64,000 bases of DNA. It comes from Roseicyclus mahoneyensis. GTDB lineage: Bacteria; Pseudomonadota; Alphaproteobacteria; Rhodobacterales; Rhodobacteraceae. Each line of letters begins with the position of its first letter. Position 1 is the stretch's first letter. The stretch lies in the NCBI RefSeq assembly GCF_003148775.1, contig NZ_QGGW01000002.1, positions 310,001-374,000 on the forward strand, read 5' to 3'. Under the pieces are notes generated by a model. The model saw only the letters and a list, made by a program, of their open reading frames with translations. It did not search any database and was not told the DNA's origin. The translations under genes were made by a program, and so were the position numbers. Shown one piece after another: positions 26,297 through 36,683 of the stretch.

Positions 26297-27279
26297 CACA
26301 GCGCCCTCCGCGTCTTGTAGATCAGGTGCAAGAACAGCGGCGCGCCGATGATCGCCATGAGGACGCCGAGCTTAAGGTCGCGCTCGGGCAGCACCAGCCG
26401 CACGGCGATGTCGGCCAAAAGCACCATTGCCGCCCCCCCAAGCGCTGAGGCGGGCAAAAGGACCGAAGGCCGGGCGCCGACGAGCGGGCGCAACAGATGC
26501 GGCACGACCAGCCCGACAAAGCCGATGGCACCCGCGACCGCTGTTGCCGCGCCAACGCAGGCCGCGACGCCCAGAACCAGTTGCAGGCGCATCCGGTCAA
26601 GCCTGATGCCCATGGCGGCGGCGGCATCCTCGCCCAGTGTCAGCGCATCGAGGCCCCGGCCCAGCGGCAGCAACAGCGCCCAGCCGACCGCCATGAAGGG
26701 TACGGCAAGCCAGACATGGGAAAACGACCGATCCGCCAGAGATCCCATCATCCAGAACACGATCTCCGCCGTGGCGAAGGGATTGGGCGAGAGGTTCAGT
26801 ACCAGCGAGGTCAGCGCACCGGCCAGCGCCGAAATCGCGATACCAGCGAGGATCAGTGTCAGCGACCCGCCACGCGGCCCGGCAAGTGCGAGGATCAGCA
26901 GGACCGCGATCACCGCACCGGCAAGCGCCGTCAAGGGCAGGGCAAGGGCAAAGGCCGCGGCAAATCCGGTCTGGATGGCGATGACGGCGCCCAAAGCCGC
27001 AGAGCCTGAGACGCCGATCAGACCCGGTTCGGCCAAAGGATTGCGCAAATAGCCCTGCAGCGCCGCGCCCGACAGGCCGAGGCTCGCGCCGATCATGACG
27101 GCAAGGATCGCGCGGGGCAGGCGGATCTCGCGCATCACCAGCGTCACGGCCTCGCCTTGCCCGGTGATGAGGGCTGACACACTTTCGCTGAAGCCAAAGC
27201 CCGCAGGGCCGGTCAGCAGCGAGAGGGCAAACAGTGCAGTGGTCAGCAAGCCCAGTCCGGGGAACAGGGCGCGGGTCAT
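26296..27279 (-). CDS. btuC: Vitamin B12 ABC transporter permease (BtuC/FecCD type)
   Basis: Inner-membrane permease (327 residues) of the FecCD family with about ten membrane helices. It has the typical IRLPRAILAVMIGASLGLSGAALQG start region near residue 52, where the first-periplasmic-loop Gly-rich motif LRNPLAEPGLIGVSGSA follows, and the GLVVPHLLRPLVG coupling-helix region in the C-terminal third. Two copies would pair with two BtuD. The ATG overlaps the binding-protein stop (ATGA) and the stop overlaps btuD. The assignment to B12 rather than iron chelates is from the riboswitch and the adjacent BtuB-like receptor. Confidence 0.88.
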   Translation of the reverse strand: MTRALFPGLGLLTTALFALSLLTGPAGFGFSESVSALITGQGEAVTLVMREIRLPRAILAVMIGASLGLSGAALQGYLRNPLAEPGLIGVSGSAALGAVIAIQTGFAAAFALALPLTALAGAVIAVLLILALAGPRGGSLTLILAGIAISALAGALTSLVLNLSPNPFATAEIVFWMMGSLADRSFSHVWLAVPFMAVGWALLLPLGRGLDALTLGEDAAAAMGIRLDRMRLQLVLGVAACVGAATAVAGAIGFVGLVVPHLLRPLVGARPSVLLPASALGGAAMVLLADIAVRLVLPERDLKLGVLMAIIGAPLFLHLIYKTRRAL

Positions 27280-28109
27280 GGTGCGCCCTCCATCATCTGA
27301 CGGGCCTCGACAAGATCGCGCAGCGCCTCAAGGACACGGGGCGTGCCGCAGGCCCAATCCGGCCCCATCTCCAGCCCGTTGCCAGCGGCGATCAGCGCCT
27401 GCAGGGCTGGGTGGTGCAAGATCTCCTCTGACCGCGAGGCGCCCGGGTAGCGGGCGGTGCGCAGGATCAGATCGGGCGCGGCCATCACCAGAAGTTCCAG
27501 CGCGATCTGGCCGGTGTCGCTGCGCGCGACCTCTGCGGCGATGTTGCGGAACCCGGCGCGGGTCAGGATCTCATGCGCCATGCCGCCTTCGCCCATGGAA
27601 TAGCCATTGGCCCCGTAAAAGGCGGCGCGCGGACCGAGCGGCAGGGTGCCAAGGGCTGCAAGATCCGTCTCGAACTGGCGGATCAGGGTCTGTGCCTGTT
27701 CTTCGCGGCCAAAAAGCGCGCCGACCTGCGCCAGCCGCTCGGGAATATCGGCCAGGCTTTCGACCCCCGGCACCTGAACCACGCTGACGCCGAGGCGGCG
27801 CAGCATGGCGATAGCGGTGGGGTCGGACCAGGGATGGGCCAGCACCAGATCGGGCCGCATCAGGTAGATCTGTTCGGCGCTGCCATAGTTGAGCGGATAG
27901 GCGGCGGCCGCGTCGGCCATGGGCGAGGTGACGGGATCTGCCGAGACATAGCTGACCGAGACCAGCTGCCCGGGTGCGGCGAGCATCAGAGCGAACTGGT
28001 CGGTGCAGAGGTTCATGGACACCACGCGGGCAGGTGCCTCGGTGGACTGCGCGCCCACGGGCCCCGCCGTGACGGTCAGGGCGAGGGCGAGGGCGCGCAG
28101 GGGGATCAT
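27276..28109 (-). CDS. btuF: Periplasmic B12-binding protein (BtuF type)
   Basis: Class III periplasmic binding protein (277 residues) delivering cobalamin to the BtuCD transporter. A signal peptide covers residues 1-~19 (LALTVTAGPVGAQ). The mature protein opens with the family strand RVVSMNLCTDQFALML and contains the conserved Glu in GSAEQIYLMRPDLVLAH, used in contacts with the permease. I start it at the ATG at 28109, one base after the btuB stop; upstream codons in this frame overlap btuB and would displace the signal peptide. It ends overlapping btuC. Confidence 0.87.
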   Translation of the reverse strand: MIPLRALALALTVTAGPVGAQSTEAPARVVSMNLCTDQFALMLAAPGQLVSVSYVSADPVTSPMADAAAAYPLNYGSAEQIYLMRPDLVLAHPWSDPTAIAMLRRLGVSVVQVPGVESLADIPERLAQVGALFGREEQAQTLIRQFETDLAALGTLPLGPRAAFYGANGYSMGEGGMAHEILTRAGFRNIAAEVARSDTGQIALELLVMAAPDLILRTARYPGASRSEEILHHPALQALIAAGNGLEMGPDWACGTPRVLEALRDLVEARQMMEGAP

Positions 28110-28110
28110 C

Positions 28111-29937
28111 TCAGAACCGGGCCCGAAGGCCGAGGTAGAAGGCCCGGTCGGAGGTGCCGTAGCCACGCGTCAACTGGTATTGTTCGTCGAGAATGTTGTC
28201 GATCCGCAGATAGGCATCGACATCGTCGCTCAGGGCGTAGGTGAAGGTTGCGTTCGCGATAGTATAGTCGCTCAGAGTCGGGCGGTTCCACACAGATTGC
28301 ACAGACAACGCCGCTGACAGCCGCTCGGTCATGTCGCCCGTCAGGGTCAAGGACAGGTCGTTCTCAGGGAACTCAAGGTTCCACGCGTTTCCGGCCGTAA
28401 GGGGCGGGTTGCGTCCGGTCGTATACGTATAGCTGCCGTCAAGACGCCACGCGTTCGTGATAGGTGCGCCGAATTCCAGTTCCACGCCCCGGCGGCGGAC
28501 CGTGCCGGGCACCTGCGCGTAGGGAAAGGGGAAATCGATCAGATTGTCGGTCTGGTTGTAGAACAGCGTTGCCCGCACAAAGGCATCCTGCGCCAACCGC
28601 CGTTCCACGCCCAGATCGAACGAGTGGCTTTCTTCAGGTTGCAATGTCGGTTCGCCGAAAGGCCCGTAAAGTTCGTAGAGCGAAGGTGCCCGGAAGCTTT
28701 GCGCTGCAGACGCGCGAATGATCCACGCCTCGTCCGGTCGCCACGAGGCCGCAAAGCGTGCCGAGGTCAGGCCACCAAATTGCGAATGGTCATCGTAACG
28801 CAGGGTTGCCGACAGGTCGAAGCTGTCGTTGGGCGACCACGCCAGCTCCCCGAAGAGCCCGACAGTCTCGCTTTCACCGCCGCCTGGGCCAAAGGTTCCT
28901 CCCTGCGAGAAAGTCTCGCGCGTGGCATCGAGCCCGAACCTCAGCGAAGTCGACTGGTCGAGGTCAAGCGCGCCGAGATAGCTCAGTGCGATCCGCTCGC
29001 CGGTGTATATGTTCTCCGCCGGGCCGAATGTGGTCGACCCCCGGACATCGCGTTCGATCTGATAGTAGGTGGCGGCAAAAGTGCTGTCGACTGCCCCGGT
29101 CGGCAGTTCCAGATAGGCGCGCAAACCGAAGCTGTCATTGTAGGACACCTCATCGGGCGAACCGTCCGATATCGGGAACTGCTCGTCGAACTCCACCCGT
29201 GCGCTTTCGACAAAGGCGCTCAGCCCGACGCGGCCGCCATTCGCCAGATCATGCCCGAGCGAAAAACTCAGCCGGTTCGATTCGAACCCGTCAGCTTCGG
29301 TATTGCCGTCATTCTCGTCGGCGGCAGAAAATCCGTCGGTCTGCGTGCGCGTCAGGGTCAAGGCATAGTCCAGCGGACCTTGCCGAACCGCAACTCCATA
29401 GCTTCCACGGTAGCTGTTGTAGCTGCCTGTCTCGATACTGGCGAACTGGTTCACGCCCTCTTCTTCGGCACGGAGGGTCGTTATGTTGATGACGCCGCCG
29501 ATCGCCTCCGAACCGTAGATCGCAGATTGCCCGCCACGCAGCAGTTCGATCCGGGAAATGTCGGATGTGGTCAAGCTGCCGAAGTCAAAGGCCGCCTGCG
29601 GGCCGGACAAATCGCTGACGTCGATCCCATCCACCAGCACACGGACATAGTTTTGCCCGGCACCGCGGATGGTGATCGAGGTCAGAGACCCGATCGGGCC
29701 GCGTGCGCGCACATCGACGCCGGGAAGGCGCGCGATATAGTCGATCACGCGGGTTTCCCCGGTCGCCTCAAGTTCCTCGCGGGTGACGACCGATACGGTC
29801 GCGCCGGTTTCCTCCAGCGTGGTTTCGCCGAATTCGGCCGAAAACACGATCTCCCCCAGATCAAATACGGATTGCGCCGGCGCCATGGCCGGGAAAAGCA
29901 ACGCCAAGGGCAGCGCGGCCGTTATGTGGTGTTTCAT
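28111..29937 (-). CDS. btuB: TonB-dependent outer-membrane B12 receptor (BtuB type)
   Basis: TonB-dependent receptor (608 residues) of BtuB size. A signal peptide covers residues 1-~22. A TonB box-like EIVFSA is at about 29-34. The plug domain (about 45-150) contains GATVSVVTREELE and IELLRGGQSAIYGSEAIGGVINI, and the barrel ends with the terminal aromatic FYLGLRARF. The cobalamin riboswitch in its 5' leader and the btuFCD genes immediately downstream identify the ligand as a corrinoid. The start is the ATG at 29937, eight bases after GAGGGG. The receptor leads a run of twelve same-strand genes with almost no gaps. Confidence 0.92.
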   Translation of the reverse strand: MKHHITAALPLALLFPAMAPAQSVFDLGEIVFSAEFGETTLEETGATVSVVTREELEATGETRVIDYIARLPGVDVRARGPIGSLTSITIRGAGQNYVRVLVDGIDVSDLSGPQAAFDFGSLTTSDISRIELLRGGQSAIYGSEAIGGVINITTLRAEEEGVNQFASIETGSYNSYRGSYGVAVRQGPLDYALTLTRTQTDGFSAADENDGNTEADGFESNRLSFSLGHDLANGGRVGLSAFVESARVEFDEQFPISDGSPDEVSYNDSFGLRAYLELPTGAVDSTFAATYYQIERDVRGSTTFGPAENIYTGERIALSYLGALDLDQSTSLRFGLDATRETFSQGGTFGPGGGESETVGLFGELAWSPNDSFDLSATLRYDDHSQFGGLTSARFAASWRPDEAWIIRASAAQSFRAPSLYELYGPFGEPTLQPEESHSFDLGVERRLAQDAFVRATLFYNQTDNLIDFPFPYAQVPGTVRRRGVELEFGAPITNAWRLDGSYTYTTGRNPPLTAGNAWNLEFPENDLSLTLTGDMTERLSAALSVQSVWNRPTLSDYTIANATFTYALSDDVDAYLRIDNILDEQYQLTRGYGTSDRAFYLGLRARF

Positions 29938-29941
29938 ATAG

Positions 29942-29965
29942 CCCCCTCGCGGGCCGTTTGGCCCG
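29942..29965 (-). promoter_or_regulatory. btuB ribosome-binding site with adjacent hairpin
   Basis: On the minus strand a perfect CGGGCC-AAAC-GGCCCG hairpin (29965-29950) runs directly into CGAGGGGGC, which holds the Shine-Dalgarno sequence of btuB, 5-9 bases before the ATG at 29937. This is the likely expression platform of the riboswitch upstream, since alternative pairing could hide or expose the site. The 120 bases between it and the aptamer hold no other structure I can support. Confidence 0.45.
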
Positions 29966-30085
29966 ATTGGTTCTGATGCAATGTTCTTGAGGGGGGGCAG
30001 ACAGACCCCTCCCGTGAACGGTGAAGCGTCACCACAACGGAAGGGTCCGTTGCCCATGGCGCCCACCGCGCCCGGACAGGGTGAT

Positions 30086-30258
30086 CACTTCGGCAGGTCT
30101 CCTGACTCGCGGGTCATCGCGTGGGCCGGGCCTTCCCGGGGTGTCCCCCAGTGGCATGTGCCGGTCACGCTCGCCGCTTACAGTTGCGGGGGCAGTCGCG
30201 GATTTGAACCGCGTTCCCTTTTCACCGGACGATGTGAATCGCCCGGACCGAAGCAGTG
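30086..30258 (-). promoter_or_regulatory. Cobalamin (adenosylcobalamin-class) riboswitch
   Basis: On the minus strand the conserved cobalamin aptamer core is present in order: GGTGAAAAGGGAA; CGGTTCAAATCCG; CTGCCCCCGCAACTGTAAGCGG; ATGCCACTGG; GGGAAGGC; and the B12 box GAGTCAGGAGACCTGCC. The closing stem P1 is visible as CTTCGG near the 5' end (30253-30248) pairing with CCGAAG (30093-30088). It lies 149 bases upstream of the btuB ATG. No U-tract terminator follows; instead a CGGGCC-AAAC-GGCCCG hairpin (29965-29950) abuts the ribosome-binding site, suggesting control of translation: B12 bound, btuB off. Confidence 0.95.
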
Positions 30259-30296
30259 TCACGCTAACGTGACAGCCGGTCTTGGCGCAAGACCGG
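30258..30296. repeat. Two perfect hairpins upstream of the riboswitch
   Basis: GTCACG-CTAA-CGTGAC (30258-30273) and CCGGTCTTG-GCG-CAAGACCGG (30276-30296) are back-to-back perfect inverted repeats just 5' of the cobalamin aptamer, in the divergent gap before the hydrolase gene. Neither is followed by a T-run. They may be a regulator operator, a 5'-end stabiliser of the btu transcript, or a barrier between the two transcription units. No clear -35/-10 pair is visible between them and 30395. Confidence 0.45.
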
Positions 30297-31721: not shown

Positions 31722-31929
31722 GGTGTTGTGTTTGAATGGCACGACAGAAAGGATTTCTTTCGTGAGATCAAAATCCTATGATGAATGCCGATATTATGGG
31801 CGGAATGCCGCAGCTCTGCACGGCAGTCGGTTGAGCCGTGCAAAGAGGACGGCGTTTCCGATCGGCACCGCCGACGCAGGCCGGGTCGCGAAAAACGACG
31901 CTTGAGCTGCATTTTCCGTCTTGTCGCAG

Positions 31930-32004
31930 CGCCGCGCCCGCCGTAGACGCGGCGGTGGGACACCCTTCCCCAACGAAGGGCACATATCTGAGAGGGTATC
32001 AGAT
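31930..32004 (+). promoter_or_regulatory. Structured serC leader (serC RNA motif-like)
   Basis: Three consecutive hairpins precede serC: CGCCGCG/CGCGGCG (31930-31936 with 31948-31954), CCCTTC/GAAGGG (31963-31968 with 31975-31980) and ATCTGA/TCAGAT (31986-31991 with 31999-32004). The loop of the last one holds the Shine-Dalgarno GAGGG (31992-31996), and the stem ends two bases before the ATG. A conserved serC RNA motif is described upstream of serC in Alphaproteobacteria; I believe this is a member from position and layout, without an alignment. It probably adjusts translation of serC and serA. Confidence 0.65.
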
Positions 32005-32005
32005 C

Positions 32006-33160
32006 ATGGCACCGACCAAACCGGCAGCGCGCCCGGACAATGCGCGTTTTTCCTCTGGCCCCTGCGCCAAACCCCCCACATTTGTGCTGGATCAGCTTGC
32101 CGACGCGCCCTTGGGCCGGTCGCATCGCGCATCCGTTGGCAAGTCCAAGCTCAAGGCGGCCATCGACCTGACGCGCGAGATCCTTGGCGTTCCAGCAGAT
32201 TATCGCATCGGAATCGTTCCCGCGTCTGACACCGGCGCGGTCGAAATGGCGATGTGGTCGATGCTTGGCGCACGACCCTGCACCATGATCGCCTGGGAAA
32301 GCTTTGGCGCCGAATGGGTCACCGATGTGGTCAAGCAGCTCAGGCTGGATGCCACCGTCCTCAAGGCGGGCTACGGTGAGATCGTCGATTTGACCCAAGT
32401 CGATTTCGACACGGACGTCGTATTTACCTGGAACGGCACCACGTCGGGCGTGCGTCTGCCCAATGGGGATGCGATTCCCGTGACCCGCGCCGGTCTGACG
32501 ATCTGCGACGCGACCAGCGCCGCCTTCGCGCAGGATCTGCCGTGGGACAAGCTCGATGTCACCACCTTCTCGTGGCAGAAGGTGATGGGCGGCGAAGCCG
32601 CGCATGGTATGCTGATCCTGTCGCCCCGCGCCGTCGAACGGCTGGAAAGCTACACCCCCGCATGGCCCCTGCCCAAGATCTTCCGCCTGACCAAGGGTGG
32701 CAAGCTGATCGAGGGCATCTTTGTCGGCGAGACGATCAACACGCCGTCGATGTTGGCCGTCGAGGATTACCTTGTCGCTTTGGCATGGGGCAAATCGGTG
32801 GGTGGTCTGCCCGGCCTGATGGCGCGCGCCGATGCCAATGCGAAGGCCATCTTCGATTTCTGCGAGGCGCGGGACTGGATCGACAATCTGGCGATTGACC
32901 CAGCGACGCGGTCGAACACCAGCGTTTGTCTGAAATTCACCGATCCCCGCATCACCGATGGCGCAGCCTTTGCCAAGTCGGTCGCCAAGCGGCTCGAATC
33001 CGAAGGCGTTGCGCTGGATATCGGTGCCTACCGCGATGCCCCTCCGGGTCTGCGGATCTGGTGCGGTGCGACGGTGGAAACGGCGGATATCGAAGCCATG
33101 CTGCCGTGGCTCGATTGGGCCTTCGTGGTAGAGATCGAGGCGCTGGCGCAAGCCGCCTGA
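32006..33160 (+). CDS. serC: Phosphoserine aminotransferase SerC
   Basis: PLP-dependent aminotransferase (384 residues) converting 3-phosphohydroxypyruvate plus glutamate to phosphoserine, the second step of serine synthesis. The PLP-binding lysine is Lys192 in [12 protein letters not shown]. The N-terminal [11 protein letters not shown] and the [11 protein letters not shown] region match the alphaproteobacterial SerC subgroup (longer than the 360-residue E. coli type). I start it at the ATG at 32006, directly after the structured leader carrying GAGGG; the frame is open upstream to 31838 but covers the leader. SerA follows 99 bases downstream, separated by a palindromic repeat. Confidence 0.95.
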
Positions 33161-33166
33161 CGGTTT

Positions 33167-33225
33167 GGTGGGCAGATTGCCCACCCTGCCCCCAACACAT
33201 TCGTCGGGTGGGCAATCTGCCCACC
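33167..33225. repeat. Paired palindromic repeat (copy A) between serC and serA
   Basis: Two 19-20-base units, GGTGGGCAGATTGCCCACC (33167-33185) and GGTGGGCAATCTGCCCACC (33207-33225), are each nearly palindromic and are exact inverted copies of each other. The RNA can therefore fold as two small hairpins or one 20-bp hairpin. A diverged second copy lies at 36628-36683. The layout resembles REP/BIME elements. Confidence 0.8.
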
Positions 33226-33259: not shown

Positions 33260-34855
33260 ATGGCCCCCAAGGTTCTCATATCCGACAGCCTGTCGGACGC
33301 TGCCGTCCAGATATTCAAGGATCGCGGCATCGACGTCACCTTTGATCCCTCGATCGGCAAGGACAAGGACAAGCTGCTGGCCGTCATCGACCAGTATGAC
33401 GGCCTCGCCATCCGGTCGGCCAGCAAGGTCACGGAAAAGATCATCGCCGCTGCGACCAACCTCAAGGTGATCGGGCGCGCAGGGATTGGCGTCGACAATG
33501 TCGACATCCCCGAGGCGTCGAAAAAGGGCATCATCGTGATGAATACGCCCTTCGGCAACTCGATCACGACGGCCGAGCACGCCATCGCGATGATGTTCGC
33601 CACAGCCCGCCAGATCCCTGAGGCCAATGCCTCGACCCATGCCGGAAAGTGGGAGAAATCCCGTTTCATGGGCGTGGAACTGACCGCCAAGACGCTGGGC
33701 GTGATCGGCGCGGGCAACATCGGCTCCATCGTCTGCGACCGGGCGCGTGGTCTCAAGATGAAGGTCATGGCTTATGACCCCTTCCTGTCCGAGGATCGCG
33801 CGCGTCAGATGGGCGTGGCAAAGGTCGACCTCGACCAACTGCTGGCGCAGGCCGATTTCATCACGTTGCATGTGCCCTACACCGAGAAAACCGCCAATAT
33901 CCTGTCGGCCGAGGCGCTGGCCAAGACCAAGAAAGGCGTGCGCATCATCAACTGCGCGCGCGGTGGTTTGGTGGATGAGGCGGCCTTGGCCGAATTGATC
34001 AAATCCGGCCATGTCGCAGGCGCGGCCTTCGACGTCTTCGCCGAGGAACCGGCGACCGAGAATCCGTTGTTCGACCTGCCCAATGTCGTCGTGACCCCGC
34101 ATCTGGGCGCCGCCACGACCGAGGCGCAGGAAAATGTCGCCCTTCAGGTCGCCGAACAGATGGCCGATTACCTGCTGACCGGTGCGGTGTCGAACGCGCT
34201 GAACATGCCGTCGGTGACCGCGCAGGAGGCCGCGATCATGGGGCCCTGGCTGAAGCTGGCGGAATACCTCGGTGCTTTCGTCGGCCAGCTGACCGACGAG
34301 CCGATTGAGACGATCGAGGTGGTCTATAACGGCATCGCCAAGGACATGAACCTGAAAGCGCTGAACTGTGCGGCCATCGCGGGCGTGATGAAGGCCACGA
34401 ACCCTGACGTGAACATGGTCTCGGCCCCGATCATGGCCAAAGAGCGGGGGGTGGAGCTGTCGACCACCACGCAAGACAAGACTGGCGTGTTCGATGGCTA
34501 CATCCGTCTGGTGGTGACCACGCCCACGCGCACCCGGTCGATTGCCGGTACCGTGTTCAGTGACGGCAAGCCGCGCTTCATCCAGATCAAGGGCATCAAT
34601 ATCGACGCCGAGATCGGGCAGCACATGCTCTACACCACCAACAAGGACGTGCCGGGCATCATCGGCACCTTGGGCCAGACGCTGGGCGAGAATGGCGTGA
34701 ACATCGCCAACTTCACGCTCGGCCGGTCTGTGCGCGAAGGTGAGGCGATTGCGCTGCTCTACCTTGACGAACAGCCGCCCGCTCATGTGCTGGCCAAGCT
34801 CAAGGCCACGGGCCTGTTCCAGCAGGTCCGCCCGTTGCAGTTCGACGCAGCCTGA
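33260..34855 (+). CDS. serA: D-3-phosphoglycerate dehydrogenase SerA
   Basis: First enzyme of serine synthesis (531 residues): oxidises 3-phosphoglycerate with NAD. Domains: an N-terminal substrate-binding part; the NAD-binding Rossmann domain with GAGNIG at 150-155; the active-site Arg (NCARGGLVDE), Glu and His (TPHLGAATTEAQ); an intervening ASB domain (about 310-450); and a C-terminal ACT domain (about 455-531, HMLYTTNKDVPGIIG). The ACT domain suggests serine feedback control. This is the long (type I) form. It is downstream of serC and followed by a strong terminator. Confidence 0.97.
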   Translation: MAPKVLISDSLSDAAVQIFKDRGIDVTFDPSIGKDKDKLLAVIDQYDGLAIRSASKVTEKIIAAATNLKVIGRAGIGVDNVDIPEASKKGIIVMNTPFGNSITTAEHAIAMMFATARQIPEANASTHAGKWEKSRFMGVELTAKTLGVIGAGNIGSIVCDRARGLKMKVMAYDPFLSEDRARQMGVAKVDLDQLLAQADFITLHVPYTEKTANILSAEALAKTKKGVRIINCARGGLVDEAALAELIKSGHVAGAAFDVFAEEPATENPLFDLPNVVVTPHLGAATTEAQENVALQVAEQMADYLLTGAVSNALNMPSVTAQEAAIMGPWLKLAEYLGAFVGQLTDEPIETIEVVYNGIAKDMNLKALNCAAIAGVMKATNPDVNMVSAPIMAKERGVELSTTTQDKTGVFDGYIRLVVTTPTRTRSIAGTVFSDGKPRFIQIKGINIDAEIGQHMLYTTNKDVPGIIGTLGQTLGENGVNIANFTLGRSVREGEAIALLYLDEQPPAHVLAKLKATGLFQQVRPLQFDAA

Positions 34856-36627: not shown

Positions 36628-36683
36628 AGGGTGGGCGATCTGCTCACCCTGCGCGTGTTTGGTAGGCAGATTGCCCGCCCTAC
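36628..36683. repeat. Paired palindromic repeat (copy B) between thiolase and pbpC
   Basis: Units GGGTGGGCGATCTGCTCACC (from 36629) and GGTAGGCAGATTGCCCGCCC (36661-36680) are diverged inverted copies of each other and match copy A at 33167-33225. The last unit covers the pbpC stop codon (36682-36680). Either strand can fold, so it may act as a two-way transcription end between the convergent genes. Confidence 0.75.

Follow-up and report, generated by a model that had tools for sequence, protein, structure and literature searches.

The leader of serC has been regarded as an orphan riboswitch candidate since 2005 (Corbino, 2005; PMC1273637), and it was still so called fifteen years on (Breaker, 2020; PMC7266159). 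The element, the sequestration of its Shine–Dalgarno (SD) sequence and its orphan status are all already published in these two papers. In vitro, neither serine, threonine, PLP nor any of four related compounds elicited a response from the serC RNA of A. tumefaciens (PMC1273637). According to the 2020 review, 'additional conserved sequence and structures' in serC leaders were reported by Greenlee et al. (2018), and it may be that the pseudoknot discussed below was already drawn there; apart from that paper, our literature search for a ligand or a pseudoknot of this leader yielded only Corbino (2005) and Breaker (2020). Neither of those describes a compensated pseudoknot, an A.C pair with isosteric replacements, or leaders without the SD hairpin, but because Greenlee et al. 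(2018) are said to add conserved serC structure, we claim no priority for any of these.

The copy considered here lies in a window (the whole stretch of DNA analysed, 64,000 nucleotides) from Roseicyclus mahoneyensis, and all parts of the leader and the two genes behind it are on the plus strand. The Rfam serC covariance model, RF00517, matches positions 31953–32004 over all 52 of its model positions, with 71 bits (about twice the gathering threshold of 35 bits) and an E-value of 1.1e-13. The element is therefore a member of this family, ending just 5′ of serC, and it is the only copy in the host genome, the SerC protein of which groups with those of Roseicyclus-like Rhodobacteraceae. Besides its score, it has the two covarying stems, the GNRA loop and SD sequence in the final hairpin, the promoter and the serC–serA context that go with membership, and the start codon (32006–32008) falls within 11 nt of the end of the hairpin at 31999. 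The downstream genes are serC (32006–33160; phosphoserine aminotransferase, TIGR01365, E 2.3e-187) and serA (33260–34855), an open reading frame named as 3-phosphoglycerate dehydrogenase from the published serC–serA operon (PMC1273637). A first-pass annotation of this DNA had recognized the serC motif of Alphaproteobacteria and proposed the Rfam search, and the match and the gene context bear out its identification; its remark that the motif has no known ligand agrees with the literature just cited (PMC1273637, PMC7266159). The folding energy of 31953–32008 is itself unexceptional (z −0.6), and the support for the leader is comparative.

Where does the RNA begin? A −35 element, TTGTCG (31921–31926), and a −10 element, TAGACG (31944–31949), are separated by 17 nt, and in 203 distinct upstream regions, counted from the first G of a conserved GGG, TTG stands at −36 or −35 in nearly all relatives and TA is enriched at −13/−12, while the base at −1 is a pyrimidine in every relative. 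Such spacing is normal for a sigma-70-type promoter whose +1 is the first G. We infer that the serC transcript starts at G 31957, so that GGG (31957–31959; present in 219 of 219 distinct leaders, and AGG in two compensated variants) would be both the 5′ end of the RNA and a strand of the pseudoknot. Corbino (2005; PMC1273637) also placed putative starts directly upstream of the motif. The first-pass annotation counted three hairpins ahead of serC: two of them would be in the RNA, but the first, a GC-rich hairpin at 31930–31954, belongs to the promoter and would lie outside the transcript, given a start at 31957. The same promoter layout precedes serC in five alphaproteobacterial loci without the module (L213, L215, L216, L225 and L231); the leaders behind it there differ from this one, resemble each other and begin near CCGCCGCG, and they possibly form another type of serC leader.

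The first stem, P1, has seven base pairs. Its 5′ strand (31962–31968) is an A followed by CCCUUC, and its 3′ strand (31975–31981) is GAAGGG followed by C; between them the loop, with consensus CCCA(A/C)C, consists of CCC (31969–31971) and AAC (31972–31974), the latter nearly invariant as A(A/C)C. Six of the pairs are of standard type with many compensatory changes, and the covariation score for the whole structure is 0.505, against 0.154 in shuffles. The seventh joins positions 10 and 29: here 207 distinct leaders have A.C, seven have G.U, four G-C and one U.C. A protonated A+.C wobble is isosteric with G.U, and the 11 leaders with G.U or G-C in place of A.C are what would be expected of such a wobble.

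The GGG and the loop CCC do not vary in the 219 distinct leaders, and this invariance alone is uninformative about whether they pair. The exceptions are L066 and L073, which read C-AGG-ACA-P1-CCU-AAC-P1′: in both, G5 has become A and C19 has become U, with no other change at the six pseudoknot positions, so that the outer pair, 5-19 (G-C in 219 leaders), would be A-U in these two and the other two pairs are intact. The chance of both changes hitting the same two leaders is 4e-5. Among the 79 SerC-anchored Rhodobacteraceae leaders in which the region is present, 77 have GGG/CCC, two have AGG/CCU and none is a single mutant. This compensatory change argues that the 5′ half of the leader is an H-type pseudoknot, with GGG paired to the CCC of the P1 loop; pairs 6-18 and 7-17, both invariant and hence uninformative, would then follow from the register. 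The geometry, in which a loop 1 of 2 nt crosses the 7-bp P1 and the AAC, as a loop 3 of 3 nt, crosses the 3-bp helix, is sterically ordinary for an H-type pseudoknot. The first-pass annotation had overlooked this structure, the most conserved part of the leader by comparison of sequences. We also asked whether the fold continues into the serC reading frame, with GGGNC pairing to a GNCCC further downstream, and rejected this, as the complement failed to track position 8.

The covarying evidence for the pseudoknot concerns one of three pairs in two leaders, both on draft MAG contigs; it is strong in register and small in number. Did the double change happen twice? The two SerC proteins are 81.6% identical to each other, and 88.7% (L066) and 86.4% (L073) identical to those of their nearest GGG/CCC lineages; L066 has two congeners with GGG/CCC, and none of 200 bootstrap trees of SerC unites the two carriers. 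Since the identities place them apart and no bootstrap tree joins them, two independent double changes are likely, if not proven (an AU test for a common origin gave p 0.06, so that one origin is not formally rejected). Searches for further AGG leaders covered the genomes of the two carriers and those listed for their genera. The contig bearing L073 (JAHBAN010000063.1) is in a MAG labelled Flavobacteriia, whereas its SerC and leader are rhodobacterial; it is probably misbinned, since the leader was absent from all 11 other genomes of that genus.

Two or three nucleotides beyond the pseudoknot lies the second hairpin, P2 (31984–31999; AUAUCU-GAGA-GGGUAU), which has a GNRA loop and would sequester the SD sequence GAGAGGG (31990–31996). 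This is the structure in Rfam, and it covaries in 207 relatives: pairs 4 and 5 from the loop are intact in 207 and 206 of the 207 leaders, respectively (about 106 expected), pair 4 being made up of six types of standard pair. The hairpin is anchored on CU-GNRA-GG (CUGNRAGG in 187 of 199 distinct leaders), and the family SD sequence, RAGGR, extends across the tetraloop and the 3′ arm; GAGAGGG here is equivalent to the RAGG position in all relatives with a GNRA-form P2. From leader to leader, the SD sequence stands at very different distances from the first start-like codon. P1 and the tetraloop, by contrast, are 8 nt apart in 125 and 9 nt apart in 62 of the 187 leaders that have the GNRA hairpin, differences in stem length being offset by the linker. 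Translational control, which the first-pass annotation read from the position of the SD sequence, had already been proposed on the same grounds by Corbino (2005; PMC1273637).

Some leaders depart from this plan. In 65 genomes that had no Rfam match, the DNA upstream of serC yielded 12 further modules. The pattern that first picked them out required GGG/CCC; a scan of those genomes with relaxed criteria revealed no leader with an altered GGG or CCC. In eight leaders (L194, L195, L196, L239, L248, L251, L259 and L266; the first three being sub-threshold Rfam matches) the pseudoknot module is kept without the CUGNRAGG hairpin, and most of these have an AAGG-type SD sequence some 8–12 nt after P1. 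Seven of them have G10.U29 and L266 has G-C at this pair. Three more (L230, L232 and L258) have P2 with another loop. Retention of the module where P2 is missing argues that P2 is not the sole expression platform, and the separability of the two would fit a sensor with changeable expression platforms.

The distribution was surveyed with a custom model of the 33-nt 5′ module, for which E-values are rough. The module was present in 139 of 387 alphaproteobacterial genomes, as a single copy in each except for one genome that carried it on two short contigs. When 397 genomes were drawn from the whole phylum, the search gave 121 matches, every one of them within Alphaproteobacteria. In every one of 232 loci that were read, serC is directly downstream, and a serA homologue follows serC in every relative for which the fetched DNA extends far enough; no other gene was found under the module in these 232 fetched loci.

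Two other features of the window may be mentioned. A short palindromic repeat, GGTGGGCAGATTGCCCACC, occurs twice in the serC–serA gap (33167–33225) and twice, in degenerate form, at 36632–36679 (six strand-wise matches in all, against 0.8 expected); in the serC–serA mRNA, such repeats could form hairpins. On the minus strand, a cobalamin riboswitch (RF00174, 141.7 bits, 30075–30267) precedes an open reading frame (28111–30066) with the look of a TonB-dependent outer-membrane receptor, and the next frame (27276–28166) resembles a periplasmic substrate-binding protein, so that the three read like a typical B12 uptake set.

What might the leader do? We think it probable that it is a cis-acting translational switch of the serC–serA mRNA, in which the pseudoknot senses and P2 withholds the SD sequence. 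The transcript would begin at the GGG, and its first 25 or so nucleotides would fold into a compact pseudoknot serving as the sensor; P2, two or three nucleotides further 3′, would act as the expression platform, a gate keeping the SD sequence in its GNRA loop and 3′ arm. With a signal of sufficient serine supply bound, be it a metabolite or a protein that reports on one, P2 would stay closed and ribosomes would be blocked; without it, P2 would open and serC–serA would be translated. Feedback repression is favoured because SerC and SerA make serine, but both the nature of the signal and the direction of the response are guesses. Comparison among relatives brings out P1, P2, pair 5-19, the A.C pair and the exclusive link to serC, and from the fixed spacing a coupling of pseudoknot and P2 may be supposed. 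Against this proposal we count the lack of response in vitro (PMC1273637), the leaders without P2, the more stable alternative fold of this copy, and the roughly two-thirds of sampled alphaproteobacterial genomes that have no such element, most of which have serC. More tentatively, and with some doubt, the first 25–29 nt might by themselves make up a pseudoknot aptamer that recognizes a serine-pathway intermediate or product, built from the first transcribed base onwards and combined in the course of evolution with two or more expression platforms, one being the P2 SD hairpin and another, in several families of Alphaproteobacteria, lacking P2.

Instead, a protein regulator that reports serine or PLP status, of the PyrR-like kind suggested by Corbino, could bind the same fold. 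The small size of the element and the failure to see small-molecule binding in vitro (PMC1273637) speak for this, and invariant letters in loop and tail would suit recognition by a protein equally well; yet a candidate protein is wanting, RNA-binding regulators are often autoregulated or multi-target whereas this regulon has a single site, and small riboswitches commonly have a pseudoknot with conserved loops, so that we consider a protein site rather unlikely. A structure that merely set mRNA stability, or a low basal translation of serC–serA, without sensing anything, would account for 20 years without a ligand and for a P2 that is a plain SD hairpin; it seems improbable, in that near-absolute conservation outside the covarying stems, the pseudoknot and the strict spacing exceed what a stability hairpin needs, and the biosynthetic context is exclusive.

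Two further alternatives concern parts of the leader. The first-pass annotation had placed the SD sequence in the loop of the last hairpin, and the hairpin it described, AUCUGA-GAGGGUA-UCAGAU (31986–32004), with the SD sequence in an open 7-nt loop, is indeed present and is the minimum free energy fold here and in two near relatives; kin that have it include L032 and L087. Its predicted energy is −15.3 kcal/mol, against −11.6 kcal/mol for the family register, a difference of 3.7 kcal/mol, and it would also pair CAU with the AUG start, made possible by the UCAGAU that follows P2. Among 79 Rhodobacteraceae leaders, however, such a helix of at least 6 bp can form in six, against 4.5 expected when tails are exchanged, and on this test we rejected it as the family structure; the family register covaries strongly. 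That this hairpin is the regulatory one even in the present genome is quite improbable. As to the 5′ GGG, its position exactly at the presumed +1, after an invariant pyrimidine, would suit a role in initiation (choice of start site, or sensing of the initiating GTP) rather than pairing with the loop, but this predicts neither the invariance of CCC nor an AGG accompanied, twice, by a CCU 14 nt downstream, and we think it very improbable.

Few riboswitch candidates have gone unsolved for as long as serC, and the pseudoknot, the probable 5′ end and the single-gene regulon together define the RNA and the mutants to test. The construct used for A. tumefaciens spanned −46 to +11 (PMC1273637), and in L123 and L130 the first G of the GGG is at −47. 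Should the A. tumefaciens leader be spaced like these two, the construct would start at the second G; the earlier negative ligand tests could then have used RNA short of part of a pairing strand, and would need repeating.

Compared with RF00517 as published (PMC1273637), the present element agrees in sequence, in its two stems, GNRA loop and SD position, in its serC–serA context and in its restriction to Alphaproteobacteria. The published text has two stems only; from comparative evidence we add a pseudoknot of the 5′ GGG with the loop CCC, a seventh P1 pair of A.C type and a transcript that would start at GGG. Among other known systems, T-box and glycine riboswitches stand before serC in other bacteria, regulating the same genes (PMC8002221, PMC9481103), but their folds, signals and lineages are all different. 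SAM-II (the metA motif of PMC1273637), the model of which (RF00521) had no match at gathering score in the whole 64-kb window, is likewise alphaproteobacterial, shorter than 70 nt, start-proximal and made of one stem with a pseudoknot; its sequence is unrelated and its ligand, SAM, is known, whereas the serC leader has a separate downstream SD hairpin. The preQ1-I riboswitch is also a small stem-loop, of about 34 nt, in which a conserved tail closes a pseudoknot (PMC7266159); the sequences are unrelated, and its pairing strand is 3′ of the stem, whereas that of the serC leader would be the very 5′ end of the transcript.
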